Origin: Gammaproteobacteria bacterium
GTDB lineage: Bacteria; Pseudomonadota; Gammaproteobacteria; Pseudomonadales; Azotimanducaceae
Assembly (NCBI GenBank): GCA_028821125.1
Contig: JAPPHD010000019.1
Coordinates: 1-45,980 of the forward strand
Reading direction: 5' to 3'
Length of the DNA stretch: 45,980 nucleotides
In this document: piece after piece, positions 8,758 through 31,108 of the stretch
Layout: every line of letters begins with the position of its first letter
Position numbering within the stretch: the stretch's first letter is position 1
Made by a program: the position numbers and the translations under genes
The notes under the pieces: generated by a model
Told to the model about the DNA's origin: nothing
Database searches by the model: none
What the model saw: the letters and a program-made list of their open reading frames with translations, nothing else

Positions 8758-11292
8758 TCAGAAATCCCAGGCTACCCGGACGCCGAAGGTGCGCGGATTG
8801 TTGAAATCCGCCACCGCGCGGCCCTGGCTGTACTGGTCGCCACCGACCTGCACCGTCTTGTCGGTGGCGTTCTTGAGGTACGCCTGGACGGTCAGCGGCG
8901 TTTCCCGCGACCGCCAGGTGGCGCGCAGGTCCATGGTTACGTAGGCGTCCTGTTTGGTGAAGAAGTACTCGATGTTGGTGGTCTTGTAGTTGTCGGAATG
9001 GTAGAGGTAAACGCCCGGCTCGAGATCGCCCATGCTGCCGAGGTCGAACAGGTAGCTGACGTCGAGCGCCACGGTGTAGCTGGGCGAGAACCGCGCCTTC
9101 TTGCCGTCCAGGACATAGACCTGGGAGCAGGTGTGGTCGCAGGGATCGGTGGTGACGATCTGCTGGTCGCCACCGCTGCGGAACACCCGGTTGAGCACCG
9201 AGCGGCCGAACTCGTCCAGCTCGGAATCGTTGATGGCGAGGCCGGCGGTCACGTTCAGGCGCTCGTTGGGCGTCCAGCGGAGTTCCGCTTCCAGCCCCAT
9301 GGAGGTCATGGTGCCGGCGACGGTGCCGACCGCCACGATCGTCTGGCCCTGGGCGACGAATGACGATGTCGTCAGGCCCTTGTAGTCGTTGTAGTAGGCC
9401 GCCATGTTCAGCCGCATGGTGCCGTCCAGGAGGGTGCTCTTCAGGCCCGCCTCGTAGGAGTCGACCTCGTTGGGGTCGGTGAGGTCGGTTGAGCCGCCGC
9501 CCTCGATGGACCCGGCGATGTAGCCGGTGGCCGCGGAGGCGTAGACCATGGTGCTGTCGCCGATGTCGTACTGCACGGCGGCCTTCCAGTCGGTGTGCGA
9601 GGCCTTGCCGGTGTTGCGGCCGTCGATGCTGGCCTGCGTCTCGACGAATACCGGCCAGTCGGCGAAGCGGCTGCCGGGGTCGCTGAGGTGCGCATCGGCG
9701 TAGCCCGCTGCCCAGCCGTGCACGCTCGGGCCCCAGTCGACGTACTTGTTGAAGAAATGACGCTTGTCGGTGGAACGGCGTACGCCCGCGGTGACGCGCA
9801 GCCGGTCGGTCAGCGAATACTCGGCCTGACCGTAGATGGCCGTCGACTTGGTGCCGCCGTTGCCCTGGTAGAGCCAGTGCCCCCAGGTCACGTTCTGCGG
9901 CGCCGACGCATCGGTGTAGCCCCAGACGAATTCGCTGGAGGTGTCGCCGTCGCCGGAATCGTTGTAGTAGAAATAGCCCAGGGTCCACTGCAGGGGCCCG
10001 TCGTGCACGGAAGTCAGGTTGATGTCGGTCTGCCAGGCCTTGGAGTTGACCCGCTGGCCGGCGGCCAGGCCGCAGGAGGGGCCGCCCCAGCACTGTGACC
10101 AGTAGCCGGGGCCGGTGGCCGTCGGCGGGGTCACGCCCTGGTTGCGCTCTCCCCAACCGGTGGGGTTTGGCGAGAAGTCCGAATCGGTCAGGCGGAATTC
10201 CTCGTAGTCGAAATAGCCCACGTTGGCGCGTACCGCCACCGGGCCGATGTCCCAGTTGACCAGGGCGCTGAACGAGGTTTCCTCGATGTCGCGCATGGGT
10301 GTGAAGTCGCTGCTGATGCGGTAGACGCCGGGCGTTACCGAAGCGGCCGGGTCGACGCCGAAGGTGCCTGCCTGGTTGCGCCCGCCGGTGGGTGGCCAAC
10401 TGTCGTTTTCCGTACCGGGGATGCGGCCCTGGCGGGGTTGCATGACGCCGTTGACGCCGTCGGTGAGGCCGGTTTCCGGATTGACGGGAATGCCGAGGAT
10501 CACGCCGGCATAGTCCGCGTTGCCGTTCGAATCGTCCTTCCAGTAAGTGGCGGAAAGGGTGATGTCGAACGTGTCCGTGGGCTCGAAGCTCAACTGCGCC
10601 CGGCCGTAGACGCTGTTGTCGTCGCGCATGCCGCCGTCGTCGTTGTAGACGTTCTTGATCATCGGGTCGCGAAAGGTGTCGCTGGCGGTGACGCGAAACG
10701 CCGCGATGTCGCTCAAGGGAACGTTCAGGAAACCCTCGATGCGGCGGTAGGAGTAGTTGCCCATGGTCACCGCCGCGCCGAAATCGAATTCCGTCGGGTC
10801 CGGCTTCCTGGCGATGATGTTGGCCAGGCCGCCGAAGGTGTTGCGGCCGAACAGCGTTCCCTGGGGGCCGCGCAGGAGTTCCACCCGCTCGACATCGAGC
10901 CAGCTCGCCAGCGCCTGCCCGTAGCGCGGCCGGTACAGGCCGTCCACATAGATCGGCACCGCCACGTCGTTGGTGCCCGCGGTGCCGGCGCCGCGCACGA
11001 TGATCGAGGGGTCGGCGCCCACGTAGCGCACCTTCAGCCCGGGAACCACCTTGTCGAGGTCGAGAACGTTCACCATCTGCAGGTCGTTGATCATGTCGCC
11101 GCTGATGGCGGTGACGGCCACGGCCAGGTCCTGCACGCTGCTCTCGCGCTTGGTGGCCGTGACGATCACTTCCTCGATCATGCCGACGCCTGCAGCTTGC
11201 TCTGCCCAGGCCGGCGTTGTCAGCGCCGTCGCCACGGCGGCGGCCAGTGCGGAAATCGGTACCGGTGGTTTCGCTGCGTTGGATGGTCTCAT
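8758..11292 (-). CDS. TonB-dependent receptor
   Basis: An 844-residue outer-membrane receptor. A Sec signal peptide (residues 1-30, cleavage after AWA) is followed by a TonB box/plug start IEEVIVTATKRESSVQDL, plug motifs IIVRGAGTAGTND and VERVELLRGPQGTLFGRNTF, and a C-terminal barrel ending VRVAWDF. The plug with LFGRNTFGG is typical of the large group of receptors of unknown substrate common in sphingomonads and marine gammaproteobacteria. The ATG at 11290-11292 is chosen for GGAGAG 9 nt upstream and because the signal peptide then begins normally; an upstream in-frame ATG would add 18 unlikely residues. The AT-rich upstream region carries a perfect palindrome at 11432-11448. Confidence 0.93.
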   Translation of the reverse strand: MRPSNAAKPPVPISALAAAVATALTTPAWAEQAAGVGMIEEVIVTATKRESSVQDLAVAVTAISGDMINDLQMVNVLDLDKVVPGLKVRYVGADPSIIVRGAGTAGTNDVAVPIYVDGLYRPRYGQALASWLDVERVELLRGPQGTLFGRNTFGGLANIIARKPDPTEFDFGAAVTMGNYSYRRIEGFLNVPLSDIAAFRVTASDTFRDPMIKNVYNDDGGMRDDNSVYGRAQLSFEPTDTFDITLSATYWKDDSNGNADYAGVILGIPVNPETGLTDGVNGVMQPRQGRIPGTENDSWPPTGGRNQAGTFGVDPAASVTPGVYRISSDFTPMRDIEETSFSALVNWDIGPVAVRANVGYFDYEEFRLTDSDFSPNPTGWGERNQGVTPPTATGPGYWSQCWGGPSCGLAAGQRVNSKAWQTDINLTSVHDGPLQWTLGYFYYNDSGDGDTSSEFVWGYTDASAPQNVTWGHWLYQGNGGTKSTAIYGQAEYSLTDRLRVTAGVRRSTDKRHFFNKYVDWGPSVHGWAAGYADAHLSDPGSRFADWPVFVETQASIDGRNTGKASHTDWKAAVQYDIGDSTMVYASAATGYIAGSIEGGGSTDLTDPNEVDSYEAGLKSTLLDGTMRLNMAAYYNDYKGLTTSSFVAQGQTIVAVGTVAGTMTSMGLEAELRWTPNERLNVTAGLAINDSELDEFGRSVLNRVFRSGGDQQIVTTDPCDHTCSQVYVLDGKKARFSPSYTVALDVSYLFDLGSMGDLEPGVYLYHSDNYKTTNIEYFFTKQDAYVTMDLRATWRSRETPLTVQAYLKNATDKTVQVGGDQYSQGRAVADFNNPRTFGVRVAWDF

Positions 11293-19863: not shown

Positions 19864-20024
19864 GGTGTGTTCCTCCTCGGCGGGGGTGGTTTTCCAGTCA
19901 ATGCCAATACCCGGCCTGTCCTCATGAATAGGCTGGCTAGTGTCCTGTCCCATAAGTTTCTTACATTTCAGCGTGCCACACGGGGCCTGTGGCAAGGCGC
20001 GGCCCGCCGGGAATGGCCCGCCCC

Positions 20025-20119
20025 ATTGCCAAGGGTCGCAACGCCGCCGCAGGCCCCGTGCGGCGCGCCCTTCGGGAGCTTGCTGTGCGCACCACTGCCG
20101 CGTTGCGGCCCTTGCCAAT
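20025..20119. repeat. Internal inverted repeat pair C/C' of the element
   Basis: ATTGCCAAGGGTCGCAACGC (20025-20044) is the reverse complement of 20100-20119 with one mismatch. It is one of several nested pairs inside the 262-bp element. Confidence 0.8.
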
Positions 20120-20172
20120 ATGCTCGATATTACCTGCGGACCGCGCCTTGCATTGGTGCGCACAGCAAGCTC
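20076..20172. repeat. Internal inverted repeat pair B/B' of the element
   Basis: GAGCTTGCTGTGCGCACCA (20076-20094) recurs as an exact reverse complement at 20154-20172, directly abutting the right terminal repeat. Its interlocked order with pair C/C' means the element cannot be one simple hairpin. Confidence 0.85.
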
Positions 20173-20202
20173 TGAAATGCAAGAAACTTATGGGACAGGA
20201 CA

Positions 20203-21261
20203 CTAGCGATCCACGGTCAGCCGGGCGGACCCTCCGCGTATGCGAATGCCCGAGAAGACACGCTTTTCAGGGGGCAGTTCCGAGTCCTCGATCCGTTCGA
20301 GCAGCATCGATACCGCAGCCTCGGTCATCCGGGCGACGGGCTGGGAGACCGTGGTCAGCAGATAGGCGGCGTAGGCGGCGGGGCCGACGCCGTCGAATCC
20401 GACCACTGAAACATCGCCGGGCACATTGAGCCCGTGAACCGCCCTCGCTTCATCGATGCAGCCGATGGCCATCATGTCATTGGCGGCGATCACGGCATCG
20501 GGCGGCTCGCCGAGTTGCCGGACGATGCTCGCGAATCCTTCCCGGCCGCTGTGATAGCCGTAGTCGCCGGTCGCCACGGCGACGTTTTCGATACCCAGTT
20601 CCCGGAGCTTGTCCATGGCGCCCAGGGCCCGCTCCGTACTGACCGGGGAATCCTCGGGGCCGGTAATGATGCTGAACCGCCGATGACCCGCTTGCACGAG
20701 CTCGCCCACCAGCCACCGTTCCCCCTCCGCGTGATCGCAGCGCACGGCGTTTACCGAGGGTTCGCCGGGGGCGCGGTTGTAGAAGACCACTGGAATGCCG
20801 GCATCGTCGAACATTTTCAGTTGCTCACCCGAAAGCATGGCGGCGGTCACTACCCCGTCCACCCGGTATTGCAGGACCTGGTCGAGCGCGGCGGCCGTGT
20901 CGCCTTCGGTTTCAAGGGCAAACAGGAGAACCCGGATGCCGCGGCTGGAAAACCGTTGCGTCAGCTCGACGAGCACCTCCGGGTAATTCAGGTTGACGAG
21001 CTTGGAGATGATGACACCCACCATGTTGGAGCGCTGGGTGATCAGGCCCCGGGCGATGGCGTTGGGGCGATATCCGACCTGCTCGGCCGCATCCATCACC
21101 CGCCGGCGCATGGCCGCGGAAGCGCTGGCGCCCGGCTTGAACACCCGGGACACCGCGGATTGCGACACCCCTGCGAGGCGCGCCACATCGTAGGAGGTGG
21201 CCCGCCGTTGGGCGCGCCCGCTGCCCGCGGACGGTCTTCCGCTGTTTTCCGGTTGCGCCAA
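20203..21261 (-). CDS. LacI-family transcriptional regulator
   Basis: A 352-residue LacI/GalR repressor. The DNA-binding domain is at 22-70 (SYDVARLAGVSQSAVSRVF, then the hinge-proximal GYRPNAIARGL); the ligand domain follows a periplasmic-binding fold with AANDMMAIG and VSVVGFDG. TTG 21261 is proposed because GGAGG lies upstream and the length then fits the family; the frame is open to 21441 with an unlikely basic extension. The TAG stop at 20203-20205 lies in the CTAG target site of the inserted element, so insertion occurred exactly at the stop without damaging the protein. Likely targets: the divergent symporter and the downstream MetE-like gene. Confidence 0.9.
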   Translation of the reverse strand: MAQPENSGRPSAGSGRAQRRATSYDVARLAGVSQSAVSRVFKPGASASAAMRRRVMDAAEQVGYRPNAIARGLITQRSNMVGVIISKLVNLNYPEVLVELTQRFSSRGIRVLLFALETEGDTAAALDQVLQYRVDGVVTAAMLSGEQLKMFDDAGIPVVFYNRAPGEPSVNAVRCDHAEGERWLVGELVQAGHRRFSIITGPEDSPVSTERALGAMDKLRELGIENVAVATGDYGYHSGREGFASIVRQLGEPPDAVIAANDMMAIGCIDEARAVHGLNVPGDVSVVGFDGVGPAAYAAYLLTTVSQPVARMTEAAVSMLLERIEDSELPPEKRVFSGIRIRGGSARLTVDR

Positions 21262-23231: not shown

Positions 23232-24227
23232 TCAGGGGCGCATGGATGCACTGCGCGCCAGCACATCCACGCCCAGGCGCATCATGTAGTGCAGCAGGTC
23301 GATGAACACCCAGTTCTCGGCCAGCTTGCCGCCTTCCCGCCGGTAGATGTCCACCACGCGCATTTCGGTCTTGCGCTCCGACGCGGGCAGCCCCATGAAT
23401 CCGGCGCCCTGATTCATGATCAGGTTCGGCCAGCCGAACCAGCCGCCATAGTGGCCTTCCGCGTGCTCCAGCACATGGCCGTTGAACTCGATGTTGTCGA
23501 GGCCGGCGCGGAAGGGCCCCTGGTGCTGGACCTGGTAGCGTTCGATGGTGCAGGTCGAGCCGATGCCGGCCGGCCCGAACCAGATCATGTCGTCGTGCCA
23601 GGTGTTGGCCAGCGATGAGTTCGACGACTGGAAACCGTCTTTCTCGACCAGGTCGTCGCACATTGCCATGATGAGGTCCAGGGTCTTCCGGGATTCGTGC
23701 TCGGCCTGCGCTTCGTACAGCAACCCGTCCTGGGTGCGCGGTCCCGGATTGACGATTTCCGCGCCGGTCTGCATCGGCAAGGGATTGAGCCCCGCCTGCT
23801 TCATGACACTGACGATGTCGCAGAAAAAGGCCGACTCGGCGATACGCTCCCCATCGACCCGGTGAAACTCGCAGTACGGCAGCAGGACGATCTTGCCGGT
23901 GGGCGGAATGCCGAGCCAGGGGCGATCGAACAGTCCCATGAACTTGCCCATGCTGGTTACCCACAGGCTTCCGTCCAGGCGGTTCGGGCCCGCCATGAAG
24001 ATGTTCTGGCGGCGCTGCAGGGGCGCGACCGCATGCCGCAACGGGCTCCACACCCGGGATGCCGTTTCCCGCACGCCGGCGATTTCATTGAATGGATGCA
24101 CGCCGCGGAACCGGTAGCCGGGGCCGGCGTGGCGGCCGAGAACGGTAGCGAGGTCGTCGGGTGAAGCGGCCTCGAATTCATCGAAAAATCGCCTTACCAC
24201 CGTTTTTGCCGTTTGAATCTCGCGCAT
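23232..24227 (-). CDS. SnoaL/NTF2-like protein, type A copy 2
   Basis: A 331-residue two-domain NTF2/SnoaL-like protein homologous to the gene at 16273-17295. Shared features: an N-terminal domain with YRFRGVHPFNEI, a linker with TGAEIVNPGPRTQDGLL, then WFGPAGIGSTCTIERYQVQH and VDIYRREGGKLAENWVFIDL. ATG 24225-24227 (GGGA upstream) is preferred over the TTG 12 nt earlier. It follows the type B copy 2 by 19 nt on the same strand, so these two are co-transcribed. Function unknown. Confidence 0.8.
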   Translation of the reverse strand: MREIQTAKTVVRRFFDEFEAASPDDLATVLGRHAGPGYRFRGVHPFNEIAGVRETASRVWSPLRHAVAPLQRRQNIFMAGPNRLDGSLWVTSMGKFMGLFDRPWLGIPPTGKIVLLPYCEFHRVDGERIAESAFFCDIVSVMKQAGLNPLPMQTGAEIVNPGPRTQDGLLYEAQAEHESRKTLDLIMAMCDDLVEKDGFQSSNSSLANTWHDDMIWFGPAGIGSTCTIERYQVQHQGPFRAGLDNIEFNGHVLEHAEGHYGGWFGWPNLIMNQGAGFMGLPASERKTEMRVVDIYRREGGKLAENWVFIDLLHYMMRLGVDVLARSASMRP

Positions 24228-24246
24228 GCCCGTTCCCAAACCTGAA

Positions 24247-25380
24247 CTACACGAGCTGCATCATCAGGTCGAGTTCGTTGAACAGCATCCACTCACGGAC
24301 CACGCGCCCGGAGGCAAGCTGCTGCTGGGTGATGCCCCAGACCTGCACCTCGCGGCCGGTCGGCTCGCCGAAGATGCCGGCGCCTGTGTGGGTGCCTTCC
24401 CCGCTCCAACGCTGGGCGGTCAGATAACCCTCCGTTTCGTTTCCCATCCAGTAGACCTCGTCTACCTGCATTTCCAGGTCGGGGAAGGCCGTGAAGATGG
24501 ATTCCAGCATCTCCCGGTAGGCTCGCGCCCCCTTGAACGCCCGGTCGGTGGGCCCCTGAAACGCGAATTCGGACTCATAGGCGGTGGCAAGGCCATCGAA
24601 CGAGCGGCCGTTCCAGAGGCCATCGAAGGTGCTGCGCACGAACCGGTCCACATCGAATCCGTCCACCGGCTCGCTGACGGAGAGCGGCGCAGCGGGCCGT
24701 GCGGCGTTTTTCAGGTCGGCCCAGACCGCAGCGCCCCGGGGCCAGCCGGCGGGCGGGTCGGCGGCGAGCGTCGGCGCCATTGCCTGCAGGTCGAAGCCGA
24801 GTTGGCGCAGCAGGCTCGAGTTGTTGTACAGCACGTGCTCGAGGAAGATCTCGTTCTCCAGCGCCACGCAATTGGCGAACACCAGCACATCGACCTTCCT
24901 GCCCGTCGCCGGGCCGTAGCGGCTCGGCCCGTCGTTGGTGCCGCGAATGATGGTGCGGTGCGAGGTATGGAAGCCGACTTCATCGTCGCCCGCCCAGACG
25001 ATCTCGTCGGCAACAAGCTCAATGTCCGAGAACGCCCCGGTGGTGTGATAGGTATCGGCCACGATCTTGGCGTCGCCGAGTTGCAGGCCGTAGTCGTCGT
25101 AGACGTGAGAGGTATCCGAATAGGTGTCGCGGATGTACTCCACCTCCCGGTCTTCCCAGATGCGGTAGGTAATGCGAACGATGTAGTCGATGATGTTGCG
25201 GTAGGTTTCCTCGAACCCGCGCAAGGATTGCCGGGGGCCATGGTCCCTGGGTATGCGCGCCTCCTCCGGCGTGCCCCGCGCGGTGTACTTCTCGAGGGAG
25301 ATCGAGAAATCGGCCGGCATGTGCCGCCTGGACAACGGTACCGCGATGCGTCTGTCCCTGCTGTCGATTCTGCCTGTCAT
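24247..25380 (-). CDS. SnoaL/NTF2-like protein, type B copy 2
   Basis: A 377-residue two-domain NTF2/SnoaL-like protein homologous to the gene at 17574-18647. Domain 1 has IDYIVRITYRIWEDREVEY, IVWAGDDEVGFHTSHRTII and NNSSLLRQLGFDLQ; domain 2 (about 240-375) has YREMLESIFTAFPDLEM and a C-terminal GRVVREWMLFNELDLMMQL. ATG 25378-25380 has GGAG 7 nt upstream; the open frame continues 34 codons further, into the intergenic gap and SIS gene, without homology. It sits between a SIS isomerase and the type A copy in a three-gene unit. Confidence 0.8.
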   Translation of the reverse strand: MTGRIDSRDRRIAVPLSRRHMPADFSISLEKYTARGTPEEARIPRDHGPRQSLRGFEETYRNIIDYIVRITYRIWEDREVEYIRDTYSDTSHVYDDYGLQLGDAKIVADTYHTTGAFSDIELVADEIVWAGDDEVGFHTSHRTIIRGTNDGPSRYGPATGRKVDVLVFANCVALENEIFLEHVLYNNSSLLRQLGFDLQAMAPTLAADPPAGWPRGAAVWADLKNAARPAAPLSVSEPVDGFDVDRFVRSTFDGLWNGRSFDGLATAYESEFAFQGPTDRAFKGARAYREMLESIFTAFPDLEMQVDEVYWMGNETEGYLTAQRWSGEGTHTGAGIFGEPTGREVQVWGITQQQLASGRVVREWMLFNELDLMMQLV

Positions 25381-25415
25381 TGCACTGCTCCGCGGGTCGC
25401 GATCAAGCCGTTGGA

Positions 25416-26015
25416 TCAACGCGGGACATTGTCGATGCGGGCCTGGCGGCCCAGGTAGCCCCCGTGATGACGCAATCCCCATTCCTCCCTCGTGACGCCC
25501 TTCGCTTCCATCAGCGCGAGCGCGATGGCGTCGCCGATTGCCAGCATGACCGCCATGCTGGCGCTGGGGGTCAGGCCGAGGGGGCAGGGCTCCTCGATCA
25601 TGCCCATGTCGAGAACCACCTCGGAGAGCCCGCGCAGTTCCGAGTCCGGGTGGGAAGTCACGCCGATCACGCTTGCGACGCCCAGGTGCCGGGCCATTTC
25701 CAGGAGTTCCAGCACCTCGCGGCTCTTGCCGCTGGTGGAAAAGGCCACCACCACATCGTCGCGGCCCACCAGGCCGAGATCGCCGTGGGCGGCTTCGGCC
25801 GGATGGATGAAATCAGCGGGGGTGGCCGTTGAGCACAGGGTCGCGGCGAATTTGCGCGCGATATGCCCGGCCTTGCCGATACCGGTGGTCAGCACCTTGC
25901 CGGAACAGCCCGCCAGGCAGTCCACCGCACGGACGAAATCATCGGTGACCGCAACCGCCCTGATGGCTTCGGCTTCCGCGTCGAGCACCGCGCGCATGCG
26001 CTCGCGTACGTTCAT
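25416..26015 (-). CDS. SIS-domain sugar-phosphate isomerase, KdsD/KpsF-like without CBS domains
   Basis: A 199-residue single SIS domain. GIGKAGHIARKFAATLCST (about 45-63), ADFIHPAEAAHGDLG and VVAFSTSGKSREVLELL (about 88-104) are the motifs of arabinose-5-phosphate isomerases of the KdsD/KpsF/GutQ group, which have two further CBS domains that are absent here. It interconverts an aldose- and ketose-phosphate; the substrate need not be arabinose-5-phosphate. It starts the minus-strand unit SIS, type B, type A. Context suggests a catabolic role for an imported sugar-like compound rather than Kdo synthesis. Confidence 0.85.
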   Translation of the reverse strand: MNVRERMRAVLDAEAEAIRAVAVTDDFVRAVDCLAGCSGKVLTTGIGKAGHIARKFAATLCSTATPADFIHPAEAAHGDLGLVGRDDVVVAFSTSGKSREVLELLEMARHLGVASVIGVTSHPDSELRGLSEVVLDMGMIEEPCPLGLTPSASMAVMLAIGDAIALALMEAKGVTREEWGLRHHGGYLGRQARIDNVPR

Positions 26016-26204: not shown

Positions 26205-27236
26205 TTACGCCGGCAACGCCCGCCCCTCCATGAAGTAGACCATGAGCCTCGCGAGCGTATATCCGGCGTCTTCCTGAACGAAGTGTCCGGCACCGCGGAT
26301 CGTGACGTTCTGGGCAACCGGCACCCGCGAGAGGAAGGCCTGTTCCCCGCCCCGCGTGATGGGATCGGAGTCTGTGAAGGCGACCAGAAAGGGTTTGTGC
26401 CAGGTCTCGAATACGGCCCAGGCAGCCTCGTTCTCCCGCAGTTGCGACGGCACGAGATAGGGCATGATCTGCGCACCGGCCTTGTAGCTCCGGTCCGGGA
26501 ACGGCGCCTCGTAGGCGGCCACGACCCCTTCGCTTCCCCCCAGGAAGGACATGAGCCGCCCGATGGGCAGATCCTCGACGTGGTAGCTGTAGGCCACCCA
26601 GCGGGGGAAGGTGAGGTCGGCCGCGAGTTCCTCCATGGTCATCGCCCCCTCCCACCAGACCGCCAGCTTGAACAGCGGATAGGCGATCCAGCCCTGCAAG
26701 CCGCCGGCAGACGGAAGCCCGGTGTTGGAGACCACGACCCGGGCGAAACGGCCTGGCTCCGCGGCGACCACGCGCAGGCCGATGAGCCCACCCCAGTCCT
26801 GTCCGAAGAAGGTGGCGCCGGTGAGATCGAGGGCGCGCACCAGTTGCAGCATGTACTCGACCTGCATGGGGTAGCTGTAGGCGTCTTCGTCGGCGAACTT
26901 GTCGGAGCGCCCGAAACCGACGAGGTCGGGCGCTATTACCCGGTATCCGGCGCCGGTGAAGACGGGGATCATCTTGCGGAACAGGTAGCTCCAGGTCGGC
27001 TCGCCGTGGATCAGCAGCAGGGTCTCGCCATCCCGCGGACCCTCGTCTATGTAGTGCAGCCGGATGTCGTCCACCTGCAGGTAGTTCGGTGCGTAGGGGA
27101 AGCCCTCAAGGTTCTCGAAGCGGGCATCGGGAGTGCGCAGAACGCCCGGCCGGACTTCCCCGGCCAGCGCGGGATACCCGAACGACAGGGCGGCCAGCCC
27201 CAGGACGGCGACGATCCTTCCGGTTATCTTGAACAT
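26205..27236 (-). CDS. Exported haloalkane-dehalogenase-like alpha/beta-hydrolase
   Basis: A 343-residue alpha/beta-hydrolase of the haloalkane dehalogenase group (HLD-I-like). HGEPTWSYLFRK (77-88), GFGRSDK (107-113), GQDWGG with nucleophile Asp147 and Trp148, an acid in FTDSDPITRG (Asp289/291) and catalytic His318 in GAGHFVQED. Asp in place of Ser fits a dehalogenase. An N-terminal signal peptide (residues 1-25, ALA) sends it to the periplasm, unlike the classical cytoplasmic enzymes. ATG 27236 has GGAGAAG 6 nt upstream. Actual activity could also be epoxide or ester hydrolysis. Confidence 0.87.
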   Translation of the reverse strand: MFKITGRIVAVLGLAALSFGYPALAGEVRPGVLRTPDARFENLEGFPYAPNYLQVDDIRLHYIDEGPRDGETLLLIHGEPTWSYLFRKMIPVFTGAGYRVIAPDLVGFGRSDKFADEDAYSYPMQVEYMLQLVRALDLTGATFFGQDWGGLIGLRVVAAEPGRFARVVVSNTGLPSAGGLQGWIAYPLFKLAVWWEGAMTMEELAADLTFPRWVAYSYHVEDLPIGRLMSFLGGSEGVVAAYEAPFPDRSYKAGAQIMPYLVPSQLRENEAAWAVFETWHKPFLVAFTDSDPITRGGEQAFLSRVPVAQNVTIRGAGHFVQEDAGYTLARLMVYFMEGRALPA

Positions 27237-27388: not shown

Positions 27389-27518
27389 TCGGGTCATCAT
27401 TCGCTCTTGATCTCGACGGCTGCCAGAGTGGCGTCGGGAGGGATGCGAACTGCAATCAATGCACCGCGCAGGGGGCGGGACCGGCGACGAAACCGGCGTA
27501 GCGAGGAGGAAACGCGGC

Positions 27519-28457
27519 ATGACTCAACCACCCGTGGACTACATCGAGCGTACGCGGGAGCAGTATTCGGCACTCGGCTATCCCGTCTACCGCTGGGTCG
27601 AGGAGACCGAGCCTCCCGCATTCACGCGGGTGGACACGCCCATGAACGAGTGGCGCGTCGGTCTCGTGGCCTCCGGCGGCATCTACGTACAGGGCCAGAT
27701 CGCCTTCCATCATCGTGACGACATCAGCTATCGGGAGATCGGGGCGGAGACGCCCGTCGACCGGTTGCGGGTCACGCATTTCGCCTACGACCTGACGGAT
27801 GCGCGGGCAGACCCCAACGCGGTCTTTCCGCTCGAGGCATTGCGCCACCTGCGTGACCGCGGTGAGATCGGCGCCCTGGCGCCACGCGCCTATACGTTCA
27901 TGGGCGGCATCTACTCGGTGCGCAAGGTGCGCGACGTGCTGGCGCCGGCGCTCGCGGACCGGCTCTGTTCCGACGAGGTCGACGTCGCGATCCTGGTGCC
28001 GGTCTGACCCGTCTGCCATCAGTCCGTCGGGCTGATCGCACGGGAGATAGAACAGCGGGGCATTGCCACGGTGAGCCTGTCGAGCGCCTGGTCCATAACC
28101 CGGGCGGCTTTCGCCCCTCGCGCAATCTACCTGGACTTTCCGCTTGGCCGCACGGCGGGAAAACCGGGCGATGTTGCCATGCAGCGGGGCGTCGTGCGCG
28201 CGGCACTTGCGAGGCTCCGCGACGCCGAGGGGCCGGGTGAGATCGTGAAACTGCCTTACCGCTGGGCGGAAACCGAGGACTGGAAAGACCGTGCGATGCG
28301 TCCTGAAACCGGCGGCGATTCCAGCGCTCATCAGGACGACCGCAGCGCGCGTCTCGGAACACCACAGTACCAGACCGAAGAAGATGCCGCCCTGGCGGAC
28401 CCGGGCTGCCCGACCTGCATCTTTCCGGACGCAGCGGGCTCTGTAGTGCAAGCCTGA
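27519..28457 (+). CDS. GrdB/PrdB-family selenoprotein (in-frame UGA = Sec163)
   Basis: A 312-residue protein of the glycine/sarcosine/betaine/D-proline reductase component B family if the in-frame TGA at 28005-28007 is read as selenocysteine. Before it: VTHFAYDLTDARADPNAVFP, YTFMGGIYS, DEVDVAILVPV; after it, in the same frame, PVCHQSVGLIAREIEQRGI and a further ~145 residues ending at a second TGA (28455). This makes a UPVC (U-x-x-C) redox motif, and a hairpin resembling a bacterial SECIS follows at once. A CPTC pair lies at 297-300. ATG 27519 has GAGGAGGAA 8 nt upstream. In clostridia these proteins act in reductive amino-acid or betaine cleavage; the proteobacterial homologues are uncharacterised. 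selABCD are not in the window. Confidence 0.87.
28008..28044 (+). promoter_or_regulatory. SECIS-like RNA hairpin directly after the Sec UGA
   Basis: Lower stem CCCGT (28008-28012) pairs with ACGGG (28040-28044). An internal loop leads to an 8-bp upper stem ATCAGTCC/GGGCTGAT (28018-28025 with 28029-28036, one G-U pair) capped by GUC. The apical GU is 18 nt after the UGA, matching the spacing at which SelB recognises the loop in bacterial SECIS elements. Confidence 0.8.
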
Positions 28458-28562: not shown

Positions 28563-29120
28563 ATGAACGATGACATCTGGCTGTTCGGCTACGGTTCGAT
28601 CATCTGGCGTACCGGATTTCCATACCGGGAGCGGCGCGCGGCGCGTCTGCCGGGATATGTGCGGCGTCTCTGGCAAGGATCCCATGACCACCGCGGCACC
28701 CCGGACGCGCCCGGTCGGGTGGTCACGCTGATCGAGGACAGGAGCGGCTTCTGCGACGGGGCTGCCTACCTGATTGACTCGACGGACGCCGAAGAGGTGC
28801 TGGTTGCGCTCGACTATCGGGAAAAGAACGGATACGAGCGCCACTCCGTGCAGATTCTGCTGAGTGACGGACGACATCTGCCGAAACACCCCGACACGCA
28901 GTGCACGGTGGCGTCAGGGCTTACCTATCTGGCCCCGCCCGGAAACCACGCCTTTCTCGGTGAGGCGCCGCTGGAGGAGATAGTGCTTCAGGTGCGCCGC
29001 TCCGTGGGGCCTTCCGGCGCCAATATCGACTACGTAAGACGGCTGGCCGAGGCCGTCAGGAAACTTGGCGGCGAGGACCGATACCTGGACGAAGTGTACG
29101 GAGCCGTTCAGTCGAACTGA
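28563..29120 (+). CDS. chaC: Gamma-glutamylcyclotransferase, ChaC-like
   Basis: A 185-residue ChaC-type protein. The substrate-binding motif WLFGYGSIIWR at 6-16 and catalytic Glu87 in DYREKNGYER are conserved, and the size fits. ChaC enzymes cleave glutathione to 5-oxoproline and Cys-Gly, releasing cysteine. It follows the selenoprotein by 105 nt and precedes MetY, so the cluster deals with thiols and sulfur amino acids. ATG 28563 lacks a strong ribosome site. Confidence 0.88.
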   Translation: MNDDIWLFGYGSIIWRTGFPYRERRAARLPGYVRRLWQGSHDHRGTPDAPGRVVTLIEDRSGFCDGAAYLIDSTDAEEVLVALDYREKNGYERHSVQILLSDGRHLPKHPDTQCTVASGLTYLAPPGNHAFLGEAPLEEIVLQVRRSVGPSGANIDYVRRLAEAVRKLGGEDRYLDEVYGAVQSN

Positions 29121-29315
29121 TCCGGGCTCTGGTGGTTCCCATCGATTGGCGAACCGACTGTACAGCATCGAACTCCACCCTTGCTGGTGAGCTGCCGGTT
29201 CGATTTCAGCAGCCGCGAACCGTTCGGACCGGTGTGCGCGTCGAGTCCTGATCGAGCCGCAGGGCAGGGTCCCGGGCCATTGACAGCAACCGGACCCGGG
29301 CACAGGCTGTGCGTC

Positions 29316-30626
29316 ATGTCCTACGACCATCAGCCGGAACGCGCTTTCGGCTTCCATACGCGCGCCGTCCACGCAGGTGCGCGCCCGGAACCGGGCACGG
29401 GAGCCCGGGCGTTCCCCATCTATCAGACTTCAAGCTACGTATTCGAAGATCCGGAGTCGGCCGCGGCCTATTTCAACCTGCAGGAATACGGGAACACCTA
29501 CTCGCGGATCATGAACCCGACGGTGGCATCGCTCGAGGAACGGCTCGCCAACCTGGAGGGCGGCATCGGGGCGGTGGCGTTCGCGAGCGGACTCGCCGCG
29601 CAGTCGTCGGCCCTGTTTACCATGCTGGTGCCGGGCGACCACATCGTCGCCTCGGCGGCGCTCTATGGGGGAACGGTCACCCAGCTCAAGCACCTGGCGC
29701 GCAAGCTGTCCGTCGGTCTGACCTTTGTCGACCCGGACGCCACGGCCAACTGGCGGGATGCGGTCCGGGAGGAAACCAGGCTGCTCTTCGCCGAAACCAT
29801 CGGCAACCCCGGCGGCAACATCCTCGACATCGAGGCGGTGGCCGCCGTCGCCCACGACGCGGGTGTGCCGCTCATGGTGGACAACACCTTCGCGACGCCT
29901 TACCTGTGCCGGCCCATGGAGTGGGGCGCGGATATCGTGGTGCACTCGCTGACCAAGTTCCTCGGCGGCCACGGCACGAGCATTGGCGGCGCCGTCGTGG
30001 ACTCCGGAGAATTCGACTGGTCGAACGGCAAGTTCTCCGTCGTCGCCGATCCCTCTCCCGCCTACCACGGGCTGGCTTTTCACGAGACGTTCGGCAACTA
30101 CGGCTACCTGATGAAGCTGCGCGCGGAAACCCTGCGGGATCTGGGCGGGGCTTTGGGGCCCCAGAATGCCTTCCTGTTCATGCAGGGCATTGAAACCCTG
30201 CCGCTGCGCATGGAGCGCCACGTGGGCAACGCCCTTGCCATCGGGCAATGGCTCAGTGCGCGGGAAGATGTGGAGGCCGTTCGCCATCCGGGACTGCCCG
30301 GCAGCCCGTACGCCGGTCTGGTCGCCCGGTATCTTCCCAAAGGGGCGGGCGCGGTGTTCTGTTTCGACCTCGACGGCGGCCGGGAGGCAGGTCAGGAGTT
30401 CATTCGCGGCGTGCAGTTGTTCTCGCACCTGGCCAATGTCGGCGACGCGAAGAGCCTCATCATCCATCCGGCGAGCACGACCCACCGGCAGCTCGGCGAC
30501 GACGAACTCGCCGCCGCCGGCATCGGCCCGGGCACCATACGCCTGTCCATTGGCATCGAGGATGTCGAAGATCTGATCTGGGACCTCGAAGGTGGCTTCG
30601 CACGCATCGGGAGGGAAGTAGCGTGA
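29316..30626 (+). CDS. metY: O-acetylhomoserine sulfhydrylase (MetY-like)
   Basis: A 436-residue PLP enzyme of the Cys/Met-metabolism family. FHTRAVHAGARPEPGTGARA and YGNTYSRIMNPTVASLEERL are hallmark N-terminal motifs; the PLP lysine is Lys214 in VVHSLTKFLGGHGTSIGG; LFSHLANVGDAKSLIIHPAS follows. It adds sulfide (or methanethiol) to O-acetylhomoserine to make homocysteine or methionine. ATG 29316 fits homologues; the open frame upstream is not conserved-looking. Its stop overlaps the next gene's GTG by 4 bp, so the two are coupled. The ~195-bp leader may be structured, but I recognise no known riboswitch in it. Confidence 0.92.
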   Translation: MSYDHQPERAFGFHTRAVHAGARPEPGTGARAFPIYQTSSYVFEDPESAAAYFNLQEYGNTYSRIMNPTVASLEERLANLEGGIGAVAFASGLAAQSSALFTMLVPGDHIVASAALYGGTVTQLKHLARKLSVGLTFVDPDATANWRDAVREETRLLFAETIGNPGGNILDIEAVAAVAHDAGVPLMVDNTFATPYLCRPMEWGADIVVHSLTKFLGGHGTSIGGAVVDSGEFDWSNGKFSVVADPSPAYHGLAFHETFGNYGYLMKLRAETLRDLGGALGPQNAFLFMQGIETLPLRMERHVGNALAIGQWLSAREDVEAVRHPGLPGSPYAGLVARYLPKGAGAVFCFDLDGGREAGQEFIRGVQLFSHLANVGDAKSLIIHPASTTHRQLGDDELAAAGIGPGTIRLSIGIEDVEDLIWDLEGGFARIGREVA

Positions 30627-31108
30627 CGGATGCGGCGCGCTACCAGGACCCGGAGGTCATCCAGCGCGTGCTGCACACCTCGCGCACGGTGGCCATTGTC
30701 GGGCTGTCGTCGAACGTGCTGCGCGCCAGCCACTTCGTCGGTTTCTACGCCGCGCGCCACGGTTACCGCGTGATTCCCGTGAACCCGCGTGAGAAGGAAA
30801 TACTCGGCACCCGATCCTACCCGAGCCTCGGTGATGTCGAAGAGCGGGTGGACATCGTCGACGTGTTCCGCGCCCCCGCGGCGGTGCCGGCCATCGCGCG
30901 CGAAGCGGTGGCCATCGGCGCCCGGGCGCTGTGGCTCCAGTTCGGCGTCATCAGCCCCGAAGGCGCGCTAACCGCCGCCGAAGCCGGCCTCGACGTGGTC
31001 ATGGACCGCTGCCTGAAGATCGAGCATGCGCGTTACATCGGCCGCATGCACGTCCTCGGCTTCGACACCGGTGTGATCTCCGCCCGGCGCGGGACGGGGC
31101 AGGCGTAA
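30623..31108 (+). CDS. CoA-binding domain protein (YccU/Rossmann type)
   Basis: A 161-residue single-domain protein of the CoA_binding_2 family: VAIVGLSSNVLRASHFVGFY (about 23-42) is the nucleotide-binding loop and GYRVIPVNPREKEILGTRSY, VDIVDVFRAP and LWLQFGVISPEGA follow in the usual order, ending with the VMDRCLKIEHAR motif. Function in general is poorly known; binding of CoA is structural knowledge for relatives. Frequently found coupled to metY-type genes, as here (GTGA overlap, GGGAGGG ribosome site). Confidence 0.87.
   Translation: MTDAARYQDPEVIQRVLHTSRTVAIVGLSSNVLRASHFVGFYAARHGYRVIPVNPREKEILGTRSYPSLGDVEERVDIVDVFRAPAAVPAIAREAVAIGARALWLQFGVISPEGALTAAEAGLDVVMDRCLKIEHARYIGRMHVLGFDTGVISARRGTGQA

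Follow-up and report, generated by a model that had tools for sequence, protein, structure and literature searches.

UxxC selenoproteins labelled PrdB have been known as a kind since 2005, when 42 such Sec sequences were reported from the Sargasso Sea (PMC1088965). According to the accessible text of the later surveys, 235 Sec and 110 Cys sequences labelled PrdB fell under PF07355 in the GOS data of 2008 (PMC2398784) and proline reductase made up 6.4% of selenoprotein genes in 2021 (PMC9402790), which places 'PrdB' or 'proline reductase' among the commoner selenoprotein labels in marine metagenome surveys. Both PrdB and GrdB, the selenoprotein B of glycine/sarcosine/betaine reductase, are given as UxxC in the accessible parts of reviews of 2022 (PMC9312934) and 2026 (PMC13188914), the running text of the latter also giving UxxCxxC in GrdB; the available part of a 2025 prediction paper (PMC12013277) has no bearing on this family. 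In the literature covered, which takes in few subscription papers, we found no experimental work on a stand-alone protein of the type described below. A preliminary description of the locus had presented it as an unusual case; it is less unusual than that, since publications of 2005 and 2008 already contain marine 'PrdB' selenoproteins with UxxC. What the locus adds is a stand-alone context, a tail with CxxC, genomes that hold several Sec paralogues and one paralogue group that lacks the partner Cys.

The gene lies on the forward strand of a 45,980-nucleotide stretch of DNA (the window). Positions 27519-28457, read jointly, form one gene of 312 codons with a single interruption, TGA 28005-28007. 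The open frames and the joined translation bear out the original observation that two frames of the same phase, 27459-28007 and 28071-28457, are separated by this TGA alone. The interrupting codon corresponds to residue 163 in the context U163-P-V-C166, and the true terminator is TGA 28455-28457. ATG 27519 is the preferred start: inspection of the sequence reveals AGGAGG nine bases 5' of it, and likeness to close homologues sets in at residues 1-5. The features are as follows.

27504..27509, + strand: ribosome-binding site AGGAGG, 9 bases before ATG 27519, read directly
27519..28457, + strand: PrdB-like selenoprotein CDS, 312 residues with UGA as Sec (frames, homologues, profile matches)
28005..28016, + strand: Sec-Pro-Val-Cys motif (UGA 28005-28007 as Sec163; Cys166 at 28014-28016)
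28018..28036, + strand: SECIS-like hairpin, apical stem of 8 pairs (loop 28026-28028, GU at 28026-28027)
28407..28418, + strand: C-terminal CxxC (Cys297-Pro-Thr-Cys300), kept within the subfamily

The TGA is a constant feature of close homologues. The search covered 38 genomes including the gene's own and found homologues in 24. In-frame TGA occurs at least once in 49 of the 51 matched places, its position at the Sec codon having been read for part of the rows; the remaining two comprise C-terminal sequence that falls short of residue 163. A genome scan yielded 475 related stretches, and the best 80 of these, counted after L170 and L016 (which shares a contig with L071) had been left out, all have TGA at the Sec codon (75 called by script, 5 by reading the rows), or 81 of 81 with the window gene. 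Their record titles, with taxa as titled and binning taken as given, are mostly those of Gammaproteobacteria/Pseudomonadales MAGs, next to Acidobacteriota (with Holophagales and Thermoanaerobaculia), Myxococcota/Deltaproteobacteria, Acidimicrobiia and one Alphaproteobacterium; we read the record names as pointing to a marine origin. Among 369 genomes sampled from the same class, eight (own included) match the PrdB profile, none above its cut-off. Six of the ten matched places in this sample have the TGA, and the remaining four all encode Cys at the Sec position (CPVCHQ in L151, L152 and L155; CPICHQ in L154). Sequence conservation continues past the TGA: over 11 chosen pairs, dN/dS is 0.06-0.19 upstream and 0.08-0.28 downstream, indicating similar purifying selection on both sides, and each half matches TIGR04483 on its own (8.8e-29 and 4.2e-15), as anticipated for two parts of one GrdB/PrdB-like protein.

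The genome, a draft of 193 contigs that is 97.3% complete, encodes the machinery for Sec insertion, which the preliminary description had proposed to look for. selA (518.7 bits), selB (385.5 bits) and tRNA-Sec (75.8 bits) lie in a row on contig C142 and selD (277 bits) is located on contig C33, all scoring above their own cut-offs. tRNA-Sec reaches at least 59 bits in 24/24 genomes with the gene vs 3/14 without it; 4/14 genomes without the gene exceed the 47-bit cut-off, which is expected because tRNA-Sec would serve other selenoproteins there. In L064, a phage-type integrase gene (9720-10592, + strand; Phage_int_M, 9.1e-29) starts ~170 bases after tRNA-Sec, as if a mobile element occupied that tRNA gene.

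Directly after the UGA the sequence can fold into a hairpin with G in a small apical loop, which corresponds to the loop criterion in the accessible text of PMC1088965. Counting the T of TGA as 1, the stem begins after a 10-base gap, pairs 14-32 to 21-25 and closes a loop at 22-24. Among the 74 distinct sequences that remained of 81 after removal of 7 duplicate 45-mers, 97.1% of cells are complementary, vs a mean of 64.4% (maximum 69.4%) in synonymous-codon redraws and 93.65% (maximum 94.8%) upon codon permutation within columns, which preserves column make-up but not kinship; none of 1000 permutations reached the observed value. Codons at paired positions change together: Gln CAA is accompanied by Leu TTG in 11/11 cases and CAG by CTG in 58/63, and a Ser TCC to Thr ACC exchange by Gly GGT in 4/4. 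A second set of 105 sequences (113 less 8 duplicates) includes 31 distinct paralogue sequences, some of them reading CTR instead of CHQ and one, L176, being a canonical GrdB. All five core pairs are kept in 98 of these 105 (null mean 8.5, maximum 19 in 2000 draws) and in 25 of the 31 paralogues alone; at least one core pair is broken in the other 7, and loop positions 22-23 read GT in 100/105. The counts come from related sequences and hence from non-independent events. The 42 bases after the TGA also fold better than synonymous redraws, with a mean z of -1.63 for the 74 sequences and -1.47 for 19 of them, vs z between -0.43 and 0.47 for other sampled stretches of the gene in the same 19. To judge from these alignments, the hairpin is maintained by synonymous, compensating changes. 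No Rfam family matched the window at gathering score, and Rfam SECIS_1 was silent both in the gene's own genome and in 14 control genomes.

A conserved UGA, a hairpin, the sel genes and Cys homologues, four sequence marks of a bacterial selenoprotein, are all present, and the gene almost certainly encodes a selenoprotein, as first proposed for Sec163 in a UxxC motif. The UGA at 28005-28007 would be read as Sec under the direction of the hairpin with GU in its loop by SelA, SelB, SelD and tRNA-Sec of the same genome. That the TGA is a real stop, left by pseudogenisation, sequencing error or regulatory truncation, is scarcely credible: translation table 11 terminates there and the Pfam GRDB profile ends there too (position 345 of 347 aligned at residue 160), an end that may itself stem from proteins cut at the UGA, but the TGA is identical in all of the best 80 of 475 loci, constraint after it resembles that before it, covariation within the hairpin is synonymous and distant relatives carry Cys at this position.

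The protein is a member of the PrdB/GrdB superfamily, and this part of the 'GrdB/PrdB-like' label given at first holds: PF07355 (GRDB) matches at 36.9 bits against a gathering cut-off of 22, up to residue 160 near the profile's own end, and 28/30 members of the set A1 match it at E up to 1. Assignment to PrdB or GrdB proper does not hold, given a TIGR04483 score below the cut-off, no partner subunit found and Ser or Thr in place of the last Cys of UxxCxxC. Among curated families, TIGR04483 (PrdB) matches best (1.3e-50, residues 27-250); the protein has the UxxC Sec motif in common with PrdB, and both of its parts align to the profile. Compared via this profile, however, it scores 172 bits where the equivalog cut-off is 300, and its last 62 residues, with the CxxC, lie beyond the match. 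With true GrdB it shares the part around Sec (hhalign probability 98.8, 28% identity over 194 columns, Sec aligned with Sec), but it is shorter and has Ser169 where UxxCxxC requires the third Cys, the motif being UPVCHQS in 76/81 and UPVCHQT in 5/81 members.

Searches of the draft genome found no match to PrdA (TIGR04480) or to a GrdE-type pyruvoyl subunit (PF09338), although a pyruvoyl gene hidden in a gap is possible. PF09338 also had no match in the 369 genomes of the class, a sample that holds no positive control; such a control is provided by G023, from the same taxonomic family, in which the same search gave 1.2e-140. G023 encodes on one contig a GrdE-type gene (PF09338, 1.6e-140), a GrdB with U-G-T-C-T-R-C (PF07355, 6.9e-134) and a GrdA-like frame (PF04723, 1.8e-38):

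G023:C195, L176 2716-5516 and 2396-2815, - and + strands: GrdE-type, GrdB (UGTCTRC) and GrdA-like genes, from profile matches

A window-type gene is present in G023 as well (contig C261), and therefore the two types can coexist and differ. The PrdC profile was rejected as an indicator; its matches all stay below the cut-off and occur in 34/38 genomes, with or without the gene, and in 8/14 controls.

Nor did the gene surroundings reveal a conserved operon. Across 81 neighbourhoods reaching up to 7 kb to either side, no cluster other than the gene itself and its antisense frame recurs in more than 15 loci. Searched by tblastn in 80 loci, 50 of which have >5 kb on both sides, the window neighbours were matched rarely: the Cys/Met PLP enzyme in 5, the CoA-binding protein in 4, the cupin in 3, the dehalogenase-like protein in 2, and ChaC, the sugar isomerase-like protein and the two SnoaL-like proteins in none. 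The protein thus appears to stand alone, neither a gene for a pyruvoyl subunit nor a conserved operon having been found. It is most improbable that the gene encodes PrdB proper and that a PrdA partner of this D-proline reductase selenoprotein subunit was missed. TIGR04483 is its best family and, in their accessible text, published surveys label marine UxxC proteins of PF07355 as PrdB, but this reading is opposed by the gap to the equivalog cut-off, by the lack of TIGR04480 and PF09338 matches in a nearly complete genome, by PrdC-profile matches that ignore the gene and by the want of a widely conserved neighbour. Taken as a whole, the locus is very probably best explained as a gene for a 312-residue, stand-alone Sec163 selenoprotein of the PrdB/GrdB superfamily, directed by the hairpin and with a putative reductase relay, a reading drawn from comparative sequence data.

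The marine-metagenome 'Proline reductase PrdB' entries of 2005 and 2008 have the same UxxC and family label as the window protein and, compared by motif and label alone from the accessible text, are likely of the same subfamily. The usual label, PrdB or proline reductase, probably misstates the function of the window protein. Should the marine 'PrdB' genes be of the window type and, as here, reside in genomes that lack the rest of the reductase, then their label is wrong and a common selenoprotein has no known reaction.

Sec paralogues accompany the gene. Its own genome encodes a second PrdB-like selenoprotein (L043, C85:25057-25869) with 39% identity to the window protein, which shares the in-frame TGA, UPVCHQ and the hairpin but belongs to another clade and has no CxxC tail. 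Single genomes (G024 and other relatives) contain as many as five PrdB-like places that have an in-frame TGA, from several clades. The four rows of one paralogue group (L039, L040, L041 and L042) read UPLDHQ, keeping Sec and replacing Cys166 by Asp. A C-terminal CxxC is found in 0/32 paralogue rows. In G004, a partial second copy of the gene's C-terminal half (C94, 4247-4665) lies downstream of a full copy.

A structure model, computed with Cys substituted for Sec from an alignment of 48 rows, predicts one domain that spans residue 163 (pLDDT 90.6, pTM 0.90; pLDDT <50 at residues 265-269 and the last three residues). Residue 163 is placed in the turn that links strand 156-160 to helix 164-179, and residues 163, 166, His167, Gln168, Arg175, Glu178 and Arg201 are invariant in the 48 rows. 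The CxxC near the C-terminus is present in 79/81 members (L110 is masked there and L134 lacks it), and PQYQ occurs in the same region in 62/81. By sequence, no convincing relative was found among solved structures (best E 0.13 and 0.24), and a PHROGs search gave nothing useful; the fold may resemble those of the Asp/Glu-racemase type.

These elements suggest, as a best guess that we hold tentatively, a Sec163-based reductase with Cys166 as resolver and an internal C-terminal CxxC relay. The Sec163 selenolate at the helix N-terminus would attack the substrate, Cys166 would resolve the selenenyl intermediate, and electrons of thioredoxin or glutaredoxin would reach the Se-S bond through the Cys297-x-x-Cys300 tail. 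Such a relay is not general, as paralogues lack the tail and the UPLDHQ group has Asp for Cys166. It is conceivable, if rather unlikely, that the protein is no reductase of the thiol-disulfide type and instead, like GrdB-type proteins but with no pyruvoyl partner, uses Sec to cleave a C-N, C-S or C-halogen bond reductively in a small molecule. The half around Sec is common with true GrdB. In A1, 29/30 rows keep His167 and Gln168, whereas 4 have Asp for Cys166, a pattern that speaks more for Sec as the nucleophile than for a UxxC pair. According to the accessible text of PMC10838667, it has been proposed that proteins related to GrdB bind fluoroacetate for C-F cleavage, and the neighbour at 26205-27236 scores above the cut-off of a haloalkane dehalogenase family; however, this neighbour was matched in only 2/80 loci. 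With similar, rather low likelihood, the window protein and its relatives could constitute a stand-alone selenoenzyme class that needs no pyruvoyl partner and applies Sec chemistry of the PrdB/GrdB kind to a free small molecule, its own CxxC relay replacing an external electron-transfer protein and paralogues working with Sec without the partner Cys; by their MAG titles its members would span several phyla and would likely be found among 'proline reductase' entries. Sec163, Cys166, Cys297/Cys300 and the UPLDHQ paralogues offer direct test points.

Other features of the window are recorded here as observations. At 19931-20212, 41-nt inverted arms with 93% complementarity lie 200 nt apart and enclose three more inverted pairs, an arrangement reminiscent of a small mobile element; a 20-base part of the arm, sought in the 181 fetched loci, occurs in none of them. 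Downstream of the selenoprotein gene, 28563-31108 encodes a ChaC-like protein followed by the Cys/Met-metabolism PLP enzyme and the CoA-binding protein; in the 5/80 loci where the PLP enzyme accompanies the selenoprotein gene, it lies upstream on the opposite strand. On the reverse strand of the window, 23235-25482 encodes two adjoining SnoaL-like proteins of 335 and 411 residues.
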